Positions 20,318 through 33,345 of a DNA stretch of 64,000 nt are shown here, one piece after another. The notes below the pieces were generated by a model, which was not told the origin of the DNA, did no database searches, and saw nothing but the letters and a program-made list of their open reading frames with translations. The stretch is taken from assembly GCF_023115355.1 (NCBI RefSeq), contig NZ_CP096019.1, positions 1,550,001 to 1,614,000 on the forward strand, in the 5' to 3' direction. This stretch comes from Halocatena salina. Its GTDB lineage: Archaea > Halobacteriota > Halobacteria > Halobacteriales > Haloarculaceae. The stretch's first letter is position 1. The number at the start of each line of letters is the position of its first letter. Made by a program: the position numbers and the translations under genes.

Positions 20318-22291
20318 CTATCCCCACCTACTCCGAATAAATGAAAAAATCTTTTCTTCCCTATGCTCGATATTATTTATAGTGAATTTGTCTTCGTTGA
20401 GGTCTCGCAATACCTTTAGTGACGATCTTTTATATATGCTATGATATTTATTTTTATATGGCTGGTTATTTTTTTCATTATTTTCTTCTGAACTAAGAAT
20501 GGCTAAATTGCCAATTCTATTCTTATTCTGCTCGTGGTTATCTAACTTGTGGCCTACTTCTGCATTTTTCGGAACCAAATGCTCCACTTGAAAGTTCCGT
20601 CGAAATTCATGGTACGGCGATAGTGATAATCGTCCCGACTTTTGTCTGAGTGACCATTCATATTCATACATAATATATTTTACAACCTCATTATTTCTTA
20701 TGCCACCCCAGCCAGATGTGAATTCTCCGTCTAATATATCCCCCTCCGAGAGATACTCAGAAATAACATCATCAATAGATGCCATTCGTTCTCTTTTTTT
20801 CACAATACGATCAACTGCCTTTGTTATTCCTAATTCTTTAGATTGGTATCCACAATATCTTTGTGAATCTGACTCGAAAATTCTCTCTATATTTCTATCA
20901 CTTATATCTGACCAGTATAAATCATTAGCTATCGATTGCAGCATATTTGAATACCTATTATGGCCATTAGACATTACAAGACTGTACCTGAACACAAGCT
21001 TCTCCAGTTCAGATGTTAAATTGGCGAATTCTTCTGAACCAACACCGAATTTTTCGGCTGCTGCTATGAGTAAAGGTGCGACCCCAGTTTGTGCCGGACG
21101 CATGAACAGCAATTGTATTTTTTTAGATGTTTCTCCCAGTCTATTATCTTTCGTATTTGATTTGCTGGAATATTTTTCAGCGAATTTATCTCTGTCGGTC
21201 AGATACGGGTAATGTTTTGAAAAGTTTTCTAATGATTTAACATATGGCTTTATGAATTTTTCAAAGCTATCTCTCTGGACACTTGCGTAGTCGTCTAGAT
21301 CAGAGAGTCTTCTATGTATCTTTATTGGTCCTTTACGTTTTGAGCGCGTATCTGATCGCTCACTTGTGAATACTGCCCAATGCAGCCTCACAAGCTTATC
21401 AATATCGGCATCAGAAAAACCATCATGTATTGTAATATTCCTTATAATATTATTAAATATGGTATATATGCGTTTGGACTTGATATCGTGGGACTGGGAT
21501 GCGCAGTAGACAAGATGACTACGAACCTTGTCATGTAGGTTTAGCCCTCTCCCTCTATTGTTTATCACTTTAAACATTCTAGCTGCTTCATCCACGTCTT
21601 CTACCACTTTTACATTCACTTCAAACCTATTTGTCATTATACCTATAATTTTCTTGAGGAATTTGTAATAGGATGCAGGATTTTCACCCCCGTTACATTT
21701 TTCGTTTTTCCACTCAGAAATCTTTGAAATAGTTGACTTCTTTGTATTGAGTATCCTTCTCTCTGTCTCTACCAAGTCAGAATTCTGAGATACCTCATTA
21801 ATTTTCTGACCATCTATAATAGTTTTCTTGTATACATCTTCAGCTAATCCTCCGAGTCTGAGTCTCGGTATATTTTCATATTCCACATAACTATTCCGGA
21901 TATCGTCACTGCGCTCATTAATATCTGATATCATATTATCACTAATATCGTCCGATACGATACTTTTCATCTCCTCTATAATAGTTGAGATAACGATGGT
22001 AATCGTCGCAAGCCTCTGTTGACCATCAACTATTGCAAATTTAGTATAATCTTCAAAATCCGTAGGTTCGACTGATTCACGCTCTTCTAGTACAACTGTA
22101 CCAAAATAATGACTAACCTTCTCTCCATCTCCATTATTCTGGTTTTGTTTATATATGAATTCAATGTCTTCAAGAAGATCGTTAACATGCGATGTCTCCC
22201 ATGCGTAGTCTCTCTGATAATCTGGGATAATAAAGTACGATTGACTAAAAACAGACGAAAGAGAGAAATTATCATCGGGATTTCCGTCCAT
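20318..22291 (-). CDS. GmrSD-type restriction enzyme (DUF262 + DUF1524 HNH)
   Basis: This single 657-residue protein joins the two halves of a GmrSD-like type IV restriction enzyme. The DUF262 half has FIIPDYQRDYAWE (residues 20-32), the nucleotide-related IVDGQQRLATITI (87-99) and NNRGRGLNLHDKVR. The DUF1524 half, from about residue 567, has FQVEHLVPKNAEVG and RIGNLAILSSEENNEKNN, the His/Asn pattern of the HNH nuclease. By family knowledge such proteins use NTP to cut phage DNA with modified (often glucosylated) cytosine. The gene is extremely AT-rich (AAA, ATA, AAT and TAT codons), so it is a clear horizontal acquisition. A TATA box (AATAAAAAGT on the minus strand) lies 21-29 bases upstream. 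Confidence 0.88.
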   Translation of the reverse strand: MDGNPDDNFSLSSVFSQSYFIIPDYQRDYAWETSHVNDLLEDIEFIYKQNQNNGDGEKVSHYFGTVVLEERESVEPTDFEDYTKFAIVDGQQRLATITIVISTIIEEMKSIVSDDISDNMISDINERSDDIRNSYVEYENIPRLRLGGLAEDVYKKTIIDGQKINEVSQNSDLVETERRILNTKKSTISKISEWKNEKCNGGENPASYYKFLKKIIGIMTNRFEVNVKVVEDVDEAARMFKVINNRGRGLNLHDKVRSHLVYCASQSHDIKSKRIYTIFNNIIRNITIHDGFSDADIDKLVRLHWAVFTSERSDTRSKRKGPIKIHRRLSDLDDYASVQRDSFEKFIKPYVKSLENFSKHYPYLTDRDKFAEKYSSKSNTKDNRLGETSKKIQLLFMRPAQTGVAPLLIAAAEKFGVGSEEFANLTSELEKLVFRYSLVMSNGHNRYSNMLQSIANDLYWSDISDRNIERIFESDSQRYCGYQSKELGITKAVDRIVKKRERMASIDDVISEYLSEGDILDGEFTSGWGGIRNNEVVKYIMYEYEWSLRQKSGRLSLSPYHEFRRNFQVEHLVPKNAEVGHKLDNHEQNKNRIGNLAILSSEENNEKNNQPYKNKYHSIYKRSSLKVLRDLNEDKFTINNIEHREEKIFSFIRSRWG

Positions 22292-27932: not shown

Positions 27933-28118
27933 ATGGAATTCGATCAGCCCAAAGCGATCGGATCGTTCGTCATACTACTGGTCGTCCTACTCGGTGGGAC
28001 GTTCACCAGTCCGATGCCGACCAACGTCTCGGCGATGGTCAGTGTCGGCCTCATCGTCTTCGGTGTTCTCACCTTCTATATCGGCGTCAAACACGGGGAG
28101 TTCCGCGCGACGCGTTAA
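27933..28118 (+). CDS. Small two-helix membrane protein
   Basis: A 61-residue protein with two hydrophobic helices (AIGSFVILLVVLLGGTF, and AMVSVGLIVFGVLTFYIGVK) joined by a short loop, ending in a charged tail EFRATR. A start at ATG 27933 fits a TATA-like TTATTTCG at 27905. Small double-span proteins like this are frequent and conserved in haloarchaea, without known function. It overlaps the 3' end of the convergent NIS-synthetase-like gene by 4 bases. Confidence 0.75.
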   Translation: MEFDQPKAIGSFVILLVVLLGGTFTSPMPTNVSAMVSVGLIVFGVLTFYIGVKHGEFRATR

Positions 28119-29962
28119 TCCTTGCCTGGTCGTTCACGCTCGGCGACGGTGTACAGCGCGTTCGACACCGTTCCGTGTCCGGTCACTTTCGGGCGCGTGG
28201 TGTAATCGTCGTAGCCGTGATCGAGGATTCGGTTTCGGTTGAGACAGAGTTTCGTAAACTCCGGTTTGAACAGATCGAACGTTTCGAACCGAGCTCGGTG
28301 TTCGGGGAATCGAGCGTGATATCTCTCGATCGTCGCCCGGACCTGCGTCCAAAACCGATGTTCGTCGTATCCTTCTTGTCGTTCGAGTAGCTCCGAGACG
28401 TATCTAAGCACGCAGATGAACAGGGTTCCGAAGATGTGTTGACAGAGGTCTTCGGGTGGGAGCTGATGGAGGATGTGGTGTTTGTACCGATCGTCCGCTC
28501 GGAGCGTCTCGTCCAATCGCTCGTCCAGTTCCGGAAGCGGCCGATCGGTGATCGCAACCTCATCAACGAAGTCTGTGAGCGCGATCCGAGTCGGAACGCC
28601 GTTTTCGAGCACGAGCACCACGTTCGTCCCATGGGGCATGAACACGGTTCCGTACCGATAGAGGTAATGACACAAAGGAAACAACAGCACTTCGAACAGT
28701 TCCTCCAGCCACGACTCCATCGAGAGCGGCGAGCGTTCGACGAACTCCGTGAGAATCGGCGTTCCATCGATGTCTTCGTGGAACAACGCGGCCAGCGTCA
28801 CTGGTCGCTCGGTCGGTTCGAGCATCCCTTCGACGCTTTCCCGCCAGACACAGCCCAGCAGTTCGTGGAACTGATAGGGTGCGTCGTCGAGTCTTGAGAG
28901 CGCCGGGTGGTCGTAACAGACGCTAGCGATTTCCCCCGGGAGCAACAGCTCACACTCCTCGCGAAGGAATCGATCGTGATCGCGTACGTCTTTGACGAAC
29001 GCCGTCACTTCTGGAGCGGCTCTAGCTTGCTCTCCAAGGATCCCTCGGTAGACGTTGGTGTTTAGAATGCGAAGCGGGAGTTTGACGTGATGTTTCTCGG
29101 GTGCGTCGACGTTCGTCACGGTTCGGATCGACTGCTGTGGGAGATACTCGTCCAGTCCCTTGCCCACCGGAACGATGGCGTCAGTGGCAATCTCGCCCGC
29201 GAAAAACGGCACGATGCTGTGTGTCCACTGCCAGTCGTGGACGGGGAACAAGTAGTAGTTCGCTGGGTCGAGTCCCTGTTCGAGCAGTCGATCAGCGAAC
29301 ACTGCGTACTGTTGGCCGAGTTCCGCGCGGAGCAACGACTCGTGATCGATCGGATCGAGCGCCGAGAACGTCGCGCGGTCGCGGTGAGCAGCGATCCACG
29401 ACAGCGTCTGTGGCCGTTTCATCTCGGGCGCGTAGTCGAGATACTCTTCGTAGCTGAATCCGACCCGCCCTTTGTTGTACGTGAACCACGGATGGCCGGT
29501 CATCTCCCCTTCGATCGCTGCATACTCCATGTCGACGATCCGTTCGTCGTCCTCTCGCGTGGCGGTTCGACGTTCCAGAGTAGCGTCTGCGAGCAGCGTG
29601 TTGTTGTACTCCCGGACGAGATACCCCAGCGTGCGATCGGAGACGCCGATGTGTGTCTGTGCGTCCATCAGCAGTTTCACGGCGTCGTCCGGACGGCTCC
29701 ATGCCCCATTCTCGCGACGAAACACGGTGCCGGGAAGCACCCTGTAGCTGTCGAACAGCCGTCGTTCGGCGTCGAATCGGTAGTCGACGCCTCCCCGCAA
29801 CGATAGCCGGTAGCGCGTCCCTCCCGACTCGGTCCCGATCGATTCGATCGGTTTCGGATCGATCAGCTCCTCGTACATGAACTCCGACAGCATTTTCCGG
29901 AGCAGCCGACGGTTCACCGTGATCCACACGTCTTCATCTCGGATCGTGTCTGGTACGTTCAT
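28115..29962 (-). CDS. IucA/IucC-type NIS siderophore synthetase
   Basis: NIS synthetases join a carboxylic acid (citrate, 2-oxoglutarate or a derivative) to an amine or alcohol by an acyl-adenylate. I start at ATG 29962 (MNVPDTIRDED), giving 615 residues, typical for the family. The nucleotide-binding lobe has EGEMTGHPWFTYNKGRVGFS and YLFPVHDWQW (usually HPWQ), then KHHVKLPLRILNTNVYRG. The C-terminal lobe has GTVFMPHGTNVVLVLENG (usually HGQN) and RIALTDFVDE (usually RDF). The overall pattern is intact, but several key motifs are altered, so substrate and even activity could differ. No transporter or decarboxylase gene of a siderophore cluster is adjacent; the only neighbour is a divergent GS-like ligase. 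Confidence 0.87.
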   Translation of the reverse strand: MNVPDTIRDEDVWITVNRRLLRKMLSEFMYEELIDPKPIESIGTESGGTRYRLSLRGGVDYRFDAERRLFDSYRVLPGTVFRRENGAWSRPDDAVKLLMDAQTHIGVSDRTLGYLVREYNNTLLADATLERRTATREDDERIVDMEYAAIEGEMTGHPWFTYNKGRVGFSYEEYLDYAPEMKRPQTLSWIAAHRDRATFSALDPIDHESLLRAELGQQYAVFADRLLEQGLDPANYYLFPVHDWQWTHSIVPFFAGEIATDAIVPVGKGLDEYLPQQSIRTVTNVDAPEKHHVKLPLRILNTNVYRGILGEQARAAPEVTAFVKDVRDHDRFLREECELLLPGEIASVCYDHPALSRLDDAPYQFHELLGCVWRESVEGMLEPTERPVTLAALFHEDIDGTPILTEFVERSPLSMESWLEELFEVLLFPLCHYLYRYGTVFMPHGTNVVLVLENGVPTRIALTDFVDEVAITDRPLPELDERLDETLRADDRYKHHILHQLPPEDLCQHIFGTLFICVLRYVSELLERQEGYDEHRFWTQVRATIERYHARFPEHRARFETFDLFKPEFTKLCLNRNRILDHGYDDYTTRPKVTGHGTVSNALYTVAERERPGKD

Positions 29963-30076
29963 GGTATCTATGAAACGTGTTGAACGCGGTTGCTCTTGAG
30001 TCTCGCCCGACCAGAACGGTGCTATACCCCGTACGTTTCGGAATACCCTCCCGTGTCGTTCCCGTTTGTTCGTCAC

Positions 30077-31408
30077 ATGCCCACGAGTTCGGACATCGCA
30101 CGGCGGTGTGAGACCGAGGACATCGATCTGGTCCGGTTGCTGTTCGTCACTCCCAACGGCGTGGTCCGCGCACAATCGGTCGCTGCGGACGACATTGCAA
30201 CCGCGATAGACGAGGGAGTTCCAGCGTCAAAGCTGGTACACGCGTACAACGCACTCGGCTTTAGAAAGAAAGACGGCCGGTTCGATGCCGCTGGAGAGGT
30301 GTTGCTCCGTCCGGACCCGGCGACGTTCCGGACGTTACCGTACGCGGATCGGTGTGGGGGAATGCTCTGTGACGTGCGGACGCTTGCGGACAGTCCATGG
30401 GCCGCCGACCCACGAACCACCCTCAGCTCGCTCATTGAGACGATAGCGTCGGCGGATCTCGTCCCATCAGTCGCGTTCGAAAGCGAGTTTCATCTCCTCG
30501 CCGAGAAGGAGGACGAACTCGTTCCGACGGACGGACGCGGCGCGTACGCGACCGCGTCTACCCGCGACACCCACGAGTTCGTGCTTGCTGTCCGAGACGC
30601 GCTTGCCGACCAAGGGATCTCCGTCGGGAAGTATTACCCCGAATGGGGTGCCGGGAAACACGAGATCGTCCTCGATCACGGACCGGCACTCACCGCTGCC
30701 GACGAACACGTGTTGTTCAAAGAGACCGTCGAGAGCGTCGCGGCGACCCACGGGTATCAAGCCACGTTCCTTCCCAAGCCGGCAACGCACTCGACGAACG
30801 GCTGTCACATCCACTGTTCGCTGTGGGACGGATCGAACAATCGGTTTGCCGGTTCGGACGGGATCAGTGAGACGGCAGCGTCGTTCATCGCGGGCGTACT
30901 CGAACACGCTCCCGGGCTGACGGCGTTGACGGCGGGCACGGTCAACTCGTATGCCCGGCTCCGTCCACAGGTCGGTGCCACAGCGTTCACGTGTTGGGGG
31001 TACGGTAACCGAGAGGCGTTGGTGCGGGTCCCGGGTCACGCTGCCGGTGCCACCGACGCCGTCCGCATCGAATACCGGGCCGCAGACAACACCGCGAATC
31101 CATACATCGCGTTGATAGGACTGCTCGCTGCCGGTCTCGACGGGATCAAGCGCGAGCTATCACCGCCCGAACCGCTTGACAGTGATCCCGGAAATCTATC
31201 CGTGGACGAACGGGATCGACGGGGGATCGAACGCCTTCCGACGACGCTTCGAGAGGCTCTTACCGCGTTGGCGGACGATCGCGTGTTGCGAAACGCTCTC
31301 GGAGCGGAACTGTACCAAACGTATCTCGACGTGAAACGGAGCCATTGGGAAGCGTTTACAGAAAGCGCAGCTACGTGGGAGCGCGATCGACTCAGAAACG
31401 TGTATTGA
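30077..31408 (+). CDS. Glutamine-synthetase-like ligase (GS paralogue)
   Basis: A 443-residue ATP-dependent carboxylate-amine ligase of the glutamine synthetase superfamily, starting at MPTSSDIARRC. The active-site pieces are there: FESEFHLL (metal Glu), YYPEWGAGKHEIVLDHG (Glu and Glu), KPATHSTNGCHIHCSLWD (His/catalytic loop) and IEYRAADNTANPYIAL (Arg/Glu). The N-terminal segment is short and diverges from true GlnA. The sequence looks like gamma-glutamyl-polyamine or gamma-glutamylanilide synthetases, not like the ammonium-assimilating enzyme. It is divergent from the NIS synthetase across a 114-base shared promoter region. Together they may make an amide-linked metabolite. Confidence 0.85.
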   Translation: MPTSSDIARRCETEDIDLVRLLFVTPNGVVRAQSVAADDIATAIDEGVPASKLVHAYNALGFRKKDGRFDAAGEVLLRPDPATFRTLPYADRCGGMLCDVRTLADSPWAADPRTTLSSLIETIASADLVPSVAFESEFHLLAEKEDELVPTDGRGAYATASTRDTHEFVLAVRDALADQGISVGKYYPEWGAGKHEIVLDHGPALTAADEHVLFKETVESVAATHGYQATFLPKPATHSTNGCHIHCSLWDGSNNRFAGSDGISETAASFIAGVLEHAPGLTALTAGTVNSYARLRPQVGATAFTCWGYGNREALVRVPGHAAGATDAVRIEYRAADNTANPYIALIGLLAAGLDGIKRELSPPEPLDSDPGNLSVDERDRRGIERLPTTLREALTALADDRVLRNALGAELYQTYLDVKRSHWEAFTESAATWERDRLRNVY

Positions 31409-31604: not shown

Positions 31605-31729
31605 CACCGCTAACTATCGTCCACATCCCCATAAGCGTCATCAAACCAAGCGAAACGACAGGGTCGTTCGTGATGTTCGTCCCCTCCTCGTGTCGAGAGG
31701 GTTTTCATTCGCCGGGTCGGATGGTGGGT

Positions 31730-32224
31730 ATGGACGGGGGAGAACGCGAGCGTCTTCGGACTATTGCCGACTACCAGTTTGGAAGCGGTGCTGGGCGAGC
31801 GCTGTTTCCGGCTGCTGAGACGCTGTCGGTGGTCCGAACCTCTTCCGGGCGGCCCCAACAGATAACGTGTGACGGGGGTCCCCACGAGGGTCGACGGATC
31901 GTCTCCTACGGTGTGGACGGTCGATTCACGCTCGGGATCGAGGGTGGACGCCGGCTGTTTGCGGCGCTCGGACGGCCGATCGTGCGGGTTGGAGACGAGA
32001 GCGTTCCGTTCGTCACAGACGGGAAAAACGCGTTTGCGAAGTTCGTCCGGGACGTCGATGACGACGTCCGCCCCGGCGATGAGGTGCTCATCACGTGTGC
32101 TGAGACGCTGCTCGCCGTCGGTCGGGCTGAACTGTCTGCCAGCGCCATGACGGATTTTCACACCGGTGTCGCCGTTTCGGTTCGTGATAGTTTCTCGGAG
32201 CAAGCGATCCGATCGGAACCATAG
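31730..32224 (+). CDS. PUA-domain RNA-binding protein
   Basis: A 164-residue protein with an N-terminal helix-turn (LRTIADYQFGSGAGRALFP) and a C-terminal PUA domain: FVTDGKNAFAKFVRDVDDDV, then RPGDEVLITCAETLLAVGRA. PUA domains bind structured RNA. Haloarchaea keep this gene directly before nac and trmI, and the same order is found here, implying a translation-linked role. I prefer ATG 31730; ATG 31721 adds three residues. The gap to nac is 39 bases, so the three genes probably form one transcription unit. Confidence 0.88.
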   Translation: MDGGERERLRTIADYQFGSGAGRALFPAAETLSVVRTSSGRPQQITCDGGPHEGRRIVSYGVDGRFTLGIEGGRRLFAALGRPIVRVGDESVPFVTDGKNAFAKFVRDVDDDVRPGDEVLITCAETLLAVGRAELSASAMTDFHTGVAVSVRDSFSEQAIRSEP

Positions 32225-32263
32225 AGCAGTACGCTTTTGCCGTTTCCGCCGTTCGAACTACGT

Positions 32264-32623
32264 ATGTTTGGTGGAGGCGGTCTCGATCCGCGCAAGATGC
32301 AACAGATGATGGAACAGATGGGAATCGACACGTCAGATATCGACGCTGAAGAGGTAATCATTCGAACGGCGGATGAGGACCTCGTCTTTACGTCGCCGGA
32401 GGTACAGCGCATTTCTGCGCAGGGCCAGGCCACGTACCAGATCGTCGGTGAACCCGATACCCGCGATACCTCAGACGACACCGCCGAGGACGGTCGTGAG
32501 GCGATTCCCGAGGACGACGTCGAGATCGTCGTCCAGCGGACGGGCGTCAGCACGGATGAGGCCCGTGAGGCACTCGAAGCCGAGGACGGTGACCTCGCGG
32601 CTGCGGTGTCCCGACTGGAGTGA
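32264..32623 (+). CDS. nac: Nascent polypeptide-associated complex protein
   Basis: Archaeal NAC binds nascent chains at the ribosome exit tunnel. This 119-residue protein shows the expected parts: N-terminal [17 protein letters not shown], the NAC beta-barrel ([19 protein letters not shown], then [17 protein letters not shown]) and the C-terminal UBA helix bundle ([20 protein letters not shown]). An acidic linker of about 20 residues separates the domains. Its TGA stop overlaps the GTG start of trmI by 4 bases, so the two are translationally coupled. Confidence 0.95.
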
Positions 32624-33345
32624 TCCTCCTCGTTTACGAGGATCGGGAGTACCTCCTCGCACCGGGTGAGACGCTCGAAACCGACCTCGGTGTCCTGGAG
32701 GTGCCGGACGATGTCTCGCCCGGCGACACCGTCGAGACACATCTCGGCACGGCGTTTAAGGCACGCGCACTCCGTGGACCGGATCTCTTCGCGCATTTCG
32801 AGCGCACCGGGGCTCCGATGATGCCCCGCGACATCGGATTGGTGATGGGTCACACCGGCGTCAGTGGCAGCGATCGGGTGCTCGACGCCGGGACAGGGAC
32901 GGGCGTGCTGAGCGCCTACCTCGCCCGGGCGGGTGCGACCGTCGTCACCTACGAAACGGATCCCGACTTCGCCGACGTCGCCCGCGAGAACATGGCGGTT
33001 GCCGGTGTCGAGGACGCCGTCGACGTTCGCACCGGGGACGTGACCGAGGCGATCGATGATCTGTGTGCCGGCGATCCGTTCGATCTCATCACACTCGACA
33101 CCCGCGACGCACCCAGCGTCATCAGACGAGCGCCCGAGCTGCTCGTCTCGGGAGGATTCGTTTCCGCGTACGTTCCTTTCGTCGAAGGAACCCGAAACGT
33201 CGTCGAGACCGCCCGATCGGCTGGCTTTCAGAACATCGAAACCTACGAGACGATCCAACGAACGATGGATATCGACGACCGCGGAACCCGCCCATCGACG
33301 GCTGGCGTCGGCCACACCGGGTATCTCGTGTTCGCGCGCGCTTGA
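32620..33345 (+). CDS. trmI: tRNA (adenine-N1)-methyltransferase
   Basis: TrmI methylates A57/A58 in the T-loop of archaeal tRNA using SAM. The 241-residue protein starts with GTG at 32620, overlapping nac by 4 bases. The N-terminal beta-domain ([18 protein letters not shown]) and [16 protein letters not shown] are TrmI hallmarks. The SAM motif is [19 protein letters not shown], with acidic strand YETDPDF, and the post-motif IV region has [12 protein letters not shown]. The family forms tetramers. A complete enzyme with no missing residues is seen. Confidence 0.93.

Follow-up and report, generated by a model that had tools for sequence, protein, structure and literature searches.

The NIS synthetase gene and the glutamine synthetase (GS)-like ligase gene that face each other in Halocatena salina are a real recurrent pair and not a local oddity. 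Their repeated partnership in the siderophore clusters of related genomes points to an undescribed glutamate-containing archaeal siderophore. The balance of the evidence tips slightly towards the pair forming the centre of a NIS siderophore pathway of haloarchaea into which a gamma-glutamyl-amine ligase has been recruited, and a citrate-diamine-glutamate metallophore would be the most likely product. The window referred to below is the whole stretch of 64,000 nucleotides that was analysed.

The gene pair and its neighbours

Both open reading frames are intact and diverge from a gap of 114 bp. This arrangement and the Pfam domains agree with the original prediction of an intact NIS synthetase facing a GS-like ligase. 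The features of the pair are as follows.

28115-29962, minus strand: NIS (IucA/IucC-type) siderophore synthetase, 615 aa (Pfam, PDB homologues, intact orthologue in Halocatena pleomorpha)
28475-28501, minus strand: insertion of about 7 residues around KHHILHQ in the NIS synthetase (alignment)
28622-28633, minus strand: HGTN motif, residues 444-447 of the NIS synthetase, marker of the NIS clade whose members usually have the ligase
29963-30076, no strand: intergenic region common to both genes, 114 bp
30077-31408, plus strand: GS-like, predicted gamma-glutamyl-amine ligase, 443 aa (Pfam, NCBIfam, active-site residues, NIS-linked clade)
30542-30544, plus strand: codon of Ala156, equivalent to ammonium-site Tyr179 of glutamine synthetase
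30974-30976, plus strand: codon of Gly300, equivalent to ammonium-site Glu327 of glutamine synthetase

The genes named around the pair encode geranylgeranyl-reductase-like, aldo/keto reductase, TGT/PUA, NAC, methyltransferase and HMG-CoA reductase proteins, and no polyamine-degradation partner is among the neighbours named beside the ligase, the small open reading frames having been scanned in part. A schizokinen-type set encoding diaminobutyrate aminotransferase (DAT), decarboxylase (DDC), IucA, IucB, IucD and IucC was not found beside the pair. The earlier statement that no classical siderophore genes are near is thus correct within the window but fails for the contig, on which a classical DAT-DDC-IucA-IucB-IucD-IucC cluster starts ∼79 kb downstream of the pair. 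The stretch from the ligase to the HMG-CoA reductase gene (31670-33345, plus strand) holds ordinary translation-related genes for a TGT C2/PUA protein, a NAC homologue and a GCD14-like tRNA methyltransferase. The gene at 20318-22291 on the minus strand, which lies a few kb from the pair, encodes a homologue of GmrSD-type restriction endonucleases (PF03235 + PF07510) and is likely a defence gene.

The NIS synthetase

The protein matches Pfam IucA_IucC (PF04183, E 1.2e-74) and FhuF (PF06276, E 2.7e-40) well above the cut-off. Its full-length homologues in the PDB are DesD (4.4e-98), AlcC (6e-97), DfoC and IucC, with E values from 1e-84 to 1e-98, and the nearest in sequence are IucC and the type C enzymes (DesD, AlcC). 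It has the IucA_IucC and FhuF-like C-terminal domains at full length, as expected for the family, and is predicted to form amides with a carboxylic acid such as citrate at the expense of ATP.

All three motifs described as changed, HDWQ, HGTN and TDF, are present, and they differ in what they mean. HDWQ is not a mark of divergence since HPWQ was found in none of the ∼90 haloarchaeal IucC-type homologues read, the variants being HDWQ, HEWQ, HQWQ, HDYQ, HEYQ and HNYQ. TDF is a minor variant seen in the window, in H. pleomorpha and in genome G055. HGTN, on the other hand, is the real marker of the clade of NIS synthetases that are mostly ligase-linked. Other haloarchaeal IucC proteins have HGQN or HGEN at this position, and HGTN changes state once on the NIS tree, although keeping the HGTN columns in the tree alignment is a small weakness for this result. 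Alignment of five ligase-linked NIS proteins with five others placed the insertion of about 7 residues around KHHILHQ in all of the former and none of the latter. For six NIS genes of the HGTN type, the genome gave no strong match to the ligase.

The GS-like ligase

The ligase matches Pfam Gln-synt_C (PF00120) with an E value of 4.7e-94. It keeps E135, E137, E189, E196, H244, R294, R312, R317, E332 and R334, which correspond to glutamate- and metal-binding residues of GS. At the ammonium positions D50, Y179 and E327, named by reference to the motifs of a solved archaeal GS, it has Ser51, Ala156 and Gly300. The glutamate and metal residues are invariant among NIS-linked ligases, and the ammonium residues are lost. 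There is therefore good support for glutamate as the acid, and ammonia is an unlikely amine. This pattern fits a predicted gamma-glutamyl-amine ligase of the GS superfamily. Assignment as a glutamine synthetase (EC 6.3.1.2) was rejected as all three ammonium-site residues are replaced.

The score of the ligase against NCBIfam NF045547 (gamma-glutamylputrescine synthetase) is 665.7 bits, above the cut-off of 650, and relatives score 685-732; activity with putrescine is a prediction from this score. The amine that the ligase would use is suggested instead by gene cluster content.

Recurrence of the pair in related genomes

The survey took in 392 genomes of the Halobacteriales and, as a further relative, Halocatena marina (G006), with the NIS and ligase protein alignments as queries. 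A strong NIS match was present in 94 of the 392 genomes and the ligase alignment matched 41. By coordinates, 24 NIS genes from several families have a ligase no more than 8.4 kb away (23 in the 392-genome sample plus that of H. marina). In the NIS tree, every member of the window clade is ligase-linked (17/17, SH-aLRT 98), as are 3 of the 10 members of the sister clade and 4 of the remaining 68 rows. The pairing is therefore not unique to this strain; uniqueness was the outcome that the original prediction had named as counting against it.

The ligase tree gives the matching picture. All 26 NIS-linked ligases fall within one clade of 34 rows (bootstrap/SH-aLRT 100/99), which has two main subfamilies, GS1, containing the window ligase, and GS2. 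Haloarchaeal GS-like proteins outside this clade are never NIS-linked (0/15), and the neighbours scanned near them include peptidase, amidohydrolase, permease and deacylase genes. The concern that the ligase might be a usual polyamine-utilisation gene is thus answered, for it carries the NCBIfam name gamma-glutamylputrescine synthetase and yet its clade, unlike the other haloarchaeal branches, is tied to siderophore clusters. No NIS gene was present in the stretches examined around bacterial relatives of the ligase (L214-L220).

Iron-box-like sites in the shared promoter

Of 12 related divergent pairs, 10 have two TTTAGGNNNNCCTAAA palindromes between the genes, although one palindrome is mismatched in G173 and likewise in G215. 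We take these palindromes to resemble DtxR-type iron operators. Exact TTTAGGNNNNCCTAAA sites number 96 in the 457 kb of 23 linked loci versus 0 in the reversed sequence, and none was found in the wider loci around 14 of the 15 out-of-clade ligases. The window pair has no TTTAGGNNNNCCTAAA site even when up to two mismatches are allowed. The classical cluster of the window genome does have two, 35 bases apart and just upstream of the aminotransferase gene. The sites in relatives are putative operators through which the pair may be under iron control.

The original prediction had offered either a metallophore or a compatible-solute-like molecule as the product. A compatible-solute function was rejected, as the search found no partner genes in its support and the iron-box-like operators of relatives point elsewhere. 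Of the two products, the metallophore is strongly favoured.

Gene clusters around the pair in relatives

The neighbours of the pair in relatives encode DAT, DDC, IucA, in some cases IucB and IucD, binding proteins, and ABC or MFS transporters. The clusters take three forms. The first combines a full hydroxamate set with the ligase (G089, a plasmid of Halostella pelagica; G161; G162; G167; and G219, Halorussus aquaticus). In the second, IucB and IucD are absent beside the pair (G258, Haloarcula salina; G201; G249; G189; G117; and the smaller clusters of G173, G215 and G055). The third is a bare triad of NIS synthetase, ligase and MFS transporter (H. marina; G316, Haloarcula pellucida; and L208, Halegenticoccus tardaugens). 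The NIS gene of Halegenticoccus tardaugens (L208:7920-9741) matches in two frames, indicating a frameshift or an assembly error; in all other respects this triad, which has two iron boxes, matches those of relatives.

Genome-wide searches gave no IucD match at E 1e-40 in G055, G117, G173, G201, G215, G249 and G258, six of which are of one genus, and no DDC match at 1e-60 in G055, G173 and G215. As these seven ligase-cluster genomes lack any IucD match, what they make is probably something other than a hydroxamate. This weighs on the idea that the ligase acylates N-hydroxy-diaminopropane with glutamate and so itself forms an iron-binding hydroxamate in place of IucB. Glutamine synthetases accept hydroxylamine, and IucD and the ligase do occur together in the clusters of G089, G161, G162, G167 and G219; however, the same five clusters also hold IucB and several other ligase clusters are in genomes without IucD, making such a hydroxamate very improbable.

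Several further arrangements were observed. Ligases of the GS1 and GS2 types adjoin each other within one siderophore cluster in G245 and G288 (L125:11022-13850 and L126:6468-9248). A gene for an RraA-like aldolase (PF03737), which might shape a carboxylic acid building block, recurs in ligase-bearing siderophore clusters (L116:16981-17724, L117:16196-16870, L119:3499-4197, L121, L125, L126 and L131). In G144 (L195:8472-10010) a ligase fragment abuts an IucA fragment, an apparent scar of a deleted siderophore cluster.

GS2 adjoins a PF01425 amidase gene, at or near an iron-box-like site, in five loci (L054:5665-9472, L055:5730-9537, L129:5998-9786, L142:9068-12850 and L136:7440-10360), and in four of these an IucB-like acetyltransferase gene adjoins it as well. 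They give the impression of a distinct add-on module in which the glutamyl group may be removable.

Such loci are what would be expected if the ligase provided a protecting group, capping one amine of the diamine with gamma-glutamate to leave only the other open to hydroxylation or acylation, the cap then being removed to leave an ordinary schizokinen-like end product. Gamma-glutamyl caps occur in other pathways, which also speaks for this scheme. No PF01425-type amidase was found, however, in any GS1 locus searched, and in clusters that have the ligase but no IucB or IucD there is nothing to protect against. We consider a protecting role unlikely.

The ligase could alternatively control overflow by removing surplus diamine made by the siderophore cluster, off the path to the product and in the manner of catabolic polyamine gamma-glutamylation. 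Its NCBIfam name would suit this, as would the tie of GlnA-2 of Haloferax mediterranei to polyamine catabolism (PMC8394153). Overflow alone is nevertheless hard to accept given the 17/17 linkage in one NIS clade, the iron-box promoter common to both genes and the pairs and triads at loci that have no DAT or DDC, and we regard it as quite unlikely.

State of the window copy

The genus of the window species includes H. pleomorpha (G004) and H. marina. In the window species and in H. pleomorpha the pair stands alone at its locus and a classical siderophore cluster is found elsewhere in each genome. Neither an exporter nor a binding protein was found with the window pair, and the window copy is a reduced form of the module of its relatives.

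One possibility is that the window pair is decaying and no longer takes part in siderophore making. Its want of iron boxes, exporter and binding protein is in keeping with decay, as is its faster divergence than the neighbouring genes when compared with H. pleomorpha. At the same locus in two congeners (G001 and G003), the ligase gene lies beside the same geranylgeranyl-reductase-like and aldo/keto reductase genes and the NIS gene is missing; this ligase (L144:8224-9561 and L196:7423-8856) has lost the residues at the E220, H269 and R355 positions, with its frame still open, and sits on a long branch (1.45) in the ligase tree. Against this, both genes are intact in both the window species and H. 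pleomorpha, whose NIS orthologue is 84% identical to that of the window; the catalytic residues are kept; and dN/dS between the two species is ∼0.14 for the NIS gene and ∼0.15 for the ligase gene. Judged from these ratios the window pair is under purifying selection, and its being a mere remnant is improbable. The decay of the ligase where its NIS partner has gone supports a joint function of the two enzymes.

A proposed pathway

A siderophore pathway built around the pair could run as follows. DAT would make diaminobutyrate, from which DDC, where it follows as is usual, would make 1,3-diaminopropane; in the window species both would come from the separate cluster ∼79 kb away. The GS-like ligase would then activate the gamma-carboxylate of glutamate with ATP and join it to one amine of the diamine. 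NIS synthetases, including the HGTN type, would link the gamma-glutamyl-diamine to citrate through an amide, giving a citrate-based metallophore with amino-acid groups that replace or accompany hydroxamates. Exporters and binding proteins, where present, would serve its transport. The amine, the order of the steps, the product and the iron control of the pathway are all proposed, the amine from the content of the clusters. Several observations count against the scheme. The window pair has no iron boxes, exporter or binding protein, and the six HGTN-type NIS genes mentioned above have no strong ligase match. What the ligase does is harder to see in clusters that pair it with all the hydroxamate genes, and the GS2-type loci with amidase and second IucB fit a removable glutamyl group better.

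In a more specific version, offered tentatively, the haloarchaea would have a class of non-hydroxamate siderophores in which the GS-like ligase gives gamma-glutamyl-diamine arms that the NIS synthetase attaches to citrate. The genomes without IucD would show the pure form and the window species would use the diamine of its schizokinen-type cluster.

If the proposal is true, a GS-superfamily ligase as the fixed partner of a NIS synthetase would add an enzyme class to the logic of NIS siderophores, and the present name of the ligase family, with its reference to polyamine breakdown, would be corrected. A siderophore type is also predicted, for whose mass cultures of Haloarcula, Halorussus, Halostella and Halocatena could be screened. 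Genomes can be mined simply with the HGTN marker, the ligase clade and the TTTAGGNNNNCCTAAA boxes.

Comparison with known systems

In the literature found, the probable schizokinen of Haloferax is the only archaeal siderophore with a genetically resolved pathway. Nothing on a GS-like ligase in siderophore biosynthesis was found in the open-licence papers searched, nor any work there joining Haloferax schizokinen (PMC7407949, PMC11349517) with GlnA-2. This agrees with the original prediction that such a molecule is not yet described, the molecule itself being putative. NIS siderophore biosynthesis with a GS-like ligase partner thus appears to be new, with a predicted chemistry.

The dat-bdb-iucABDC cluster of Haloferax volcanii (HVO_B0046-B0041; PMC7407949), the source of the probable schizokinen, is reported to be iron-repressed and encodes the same DAT, DDC, IucA, IucB, IucD and IucC homologues as the cluster ∼79 kb from the window pair. 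As described, it contains no GS-like gene, whereas the window pair stands apart from such a cluster and some ligase clusters of relatives lack IucB and IucD.

The window NIS synthetase is homologous over its full length to the solved structures of DesD, AlcC and IucC and differs from them in having HGTN rather than HGEN or HGQN, a short insertion and a GS-like partner gene. The window ligase scores above the NF045547 cut-off for gamma-glutamylputrescine synthetase, but the linked loci have siderophore partners instead of polyamine-degradation ones. GlnA-2 of Haloferax mediterranei, a proven glutamate-putrescine ligase, belongs to the same GS fold family and, set side by side from its reported residue pattern, has likewise lost D50 and E327 and has Ala for Tyr179 (PMC8394153). 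That paper ties GlnA-2 to polyamine catabolism and does not mention siderophores, whereas the clade of the window ligase is linked to NIS synthetases.
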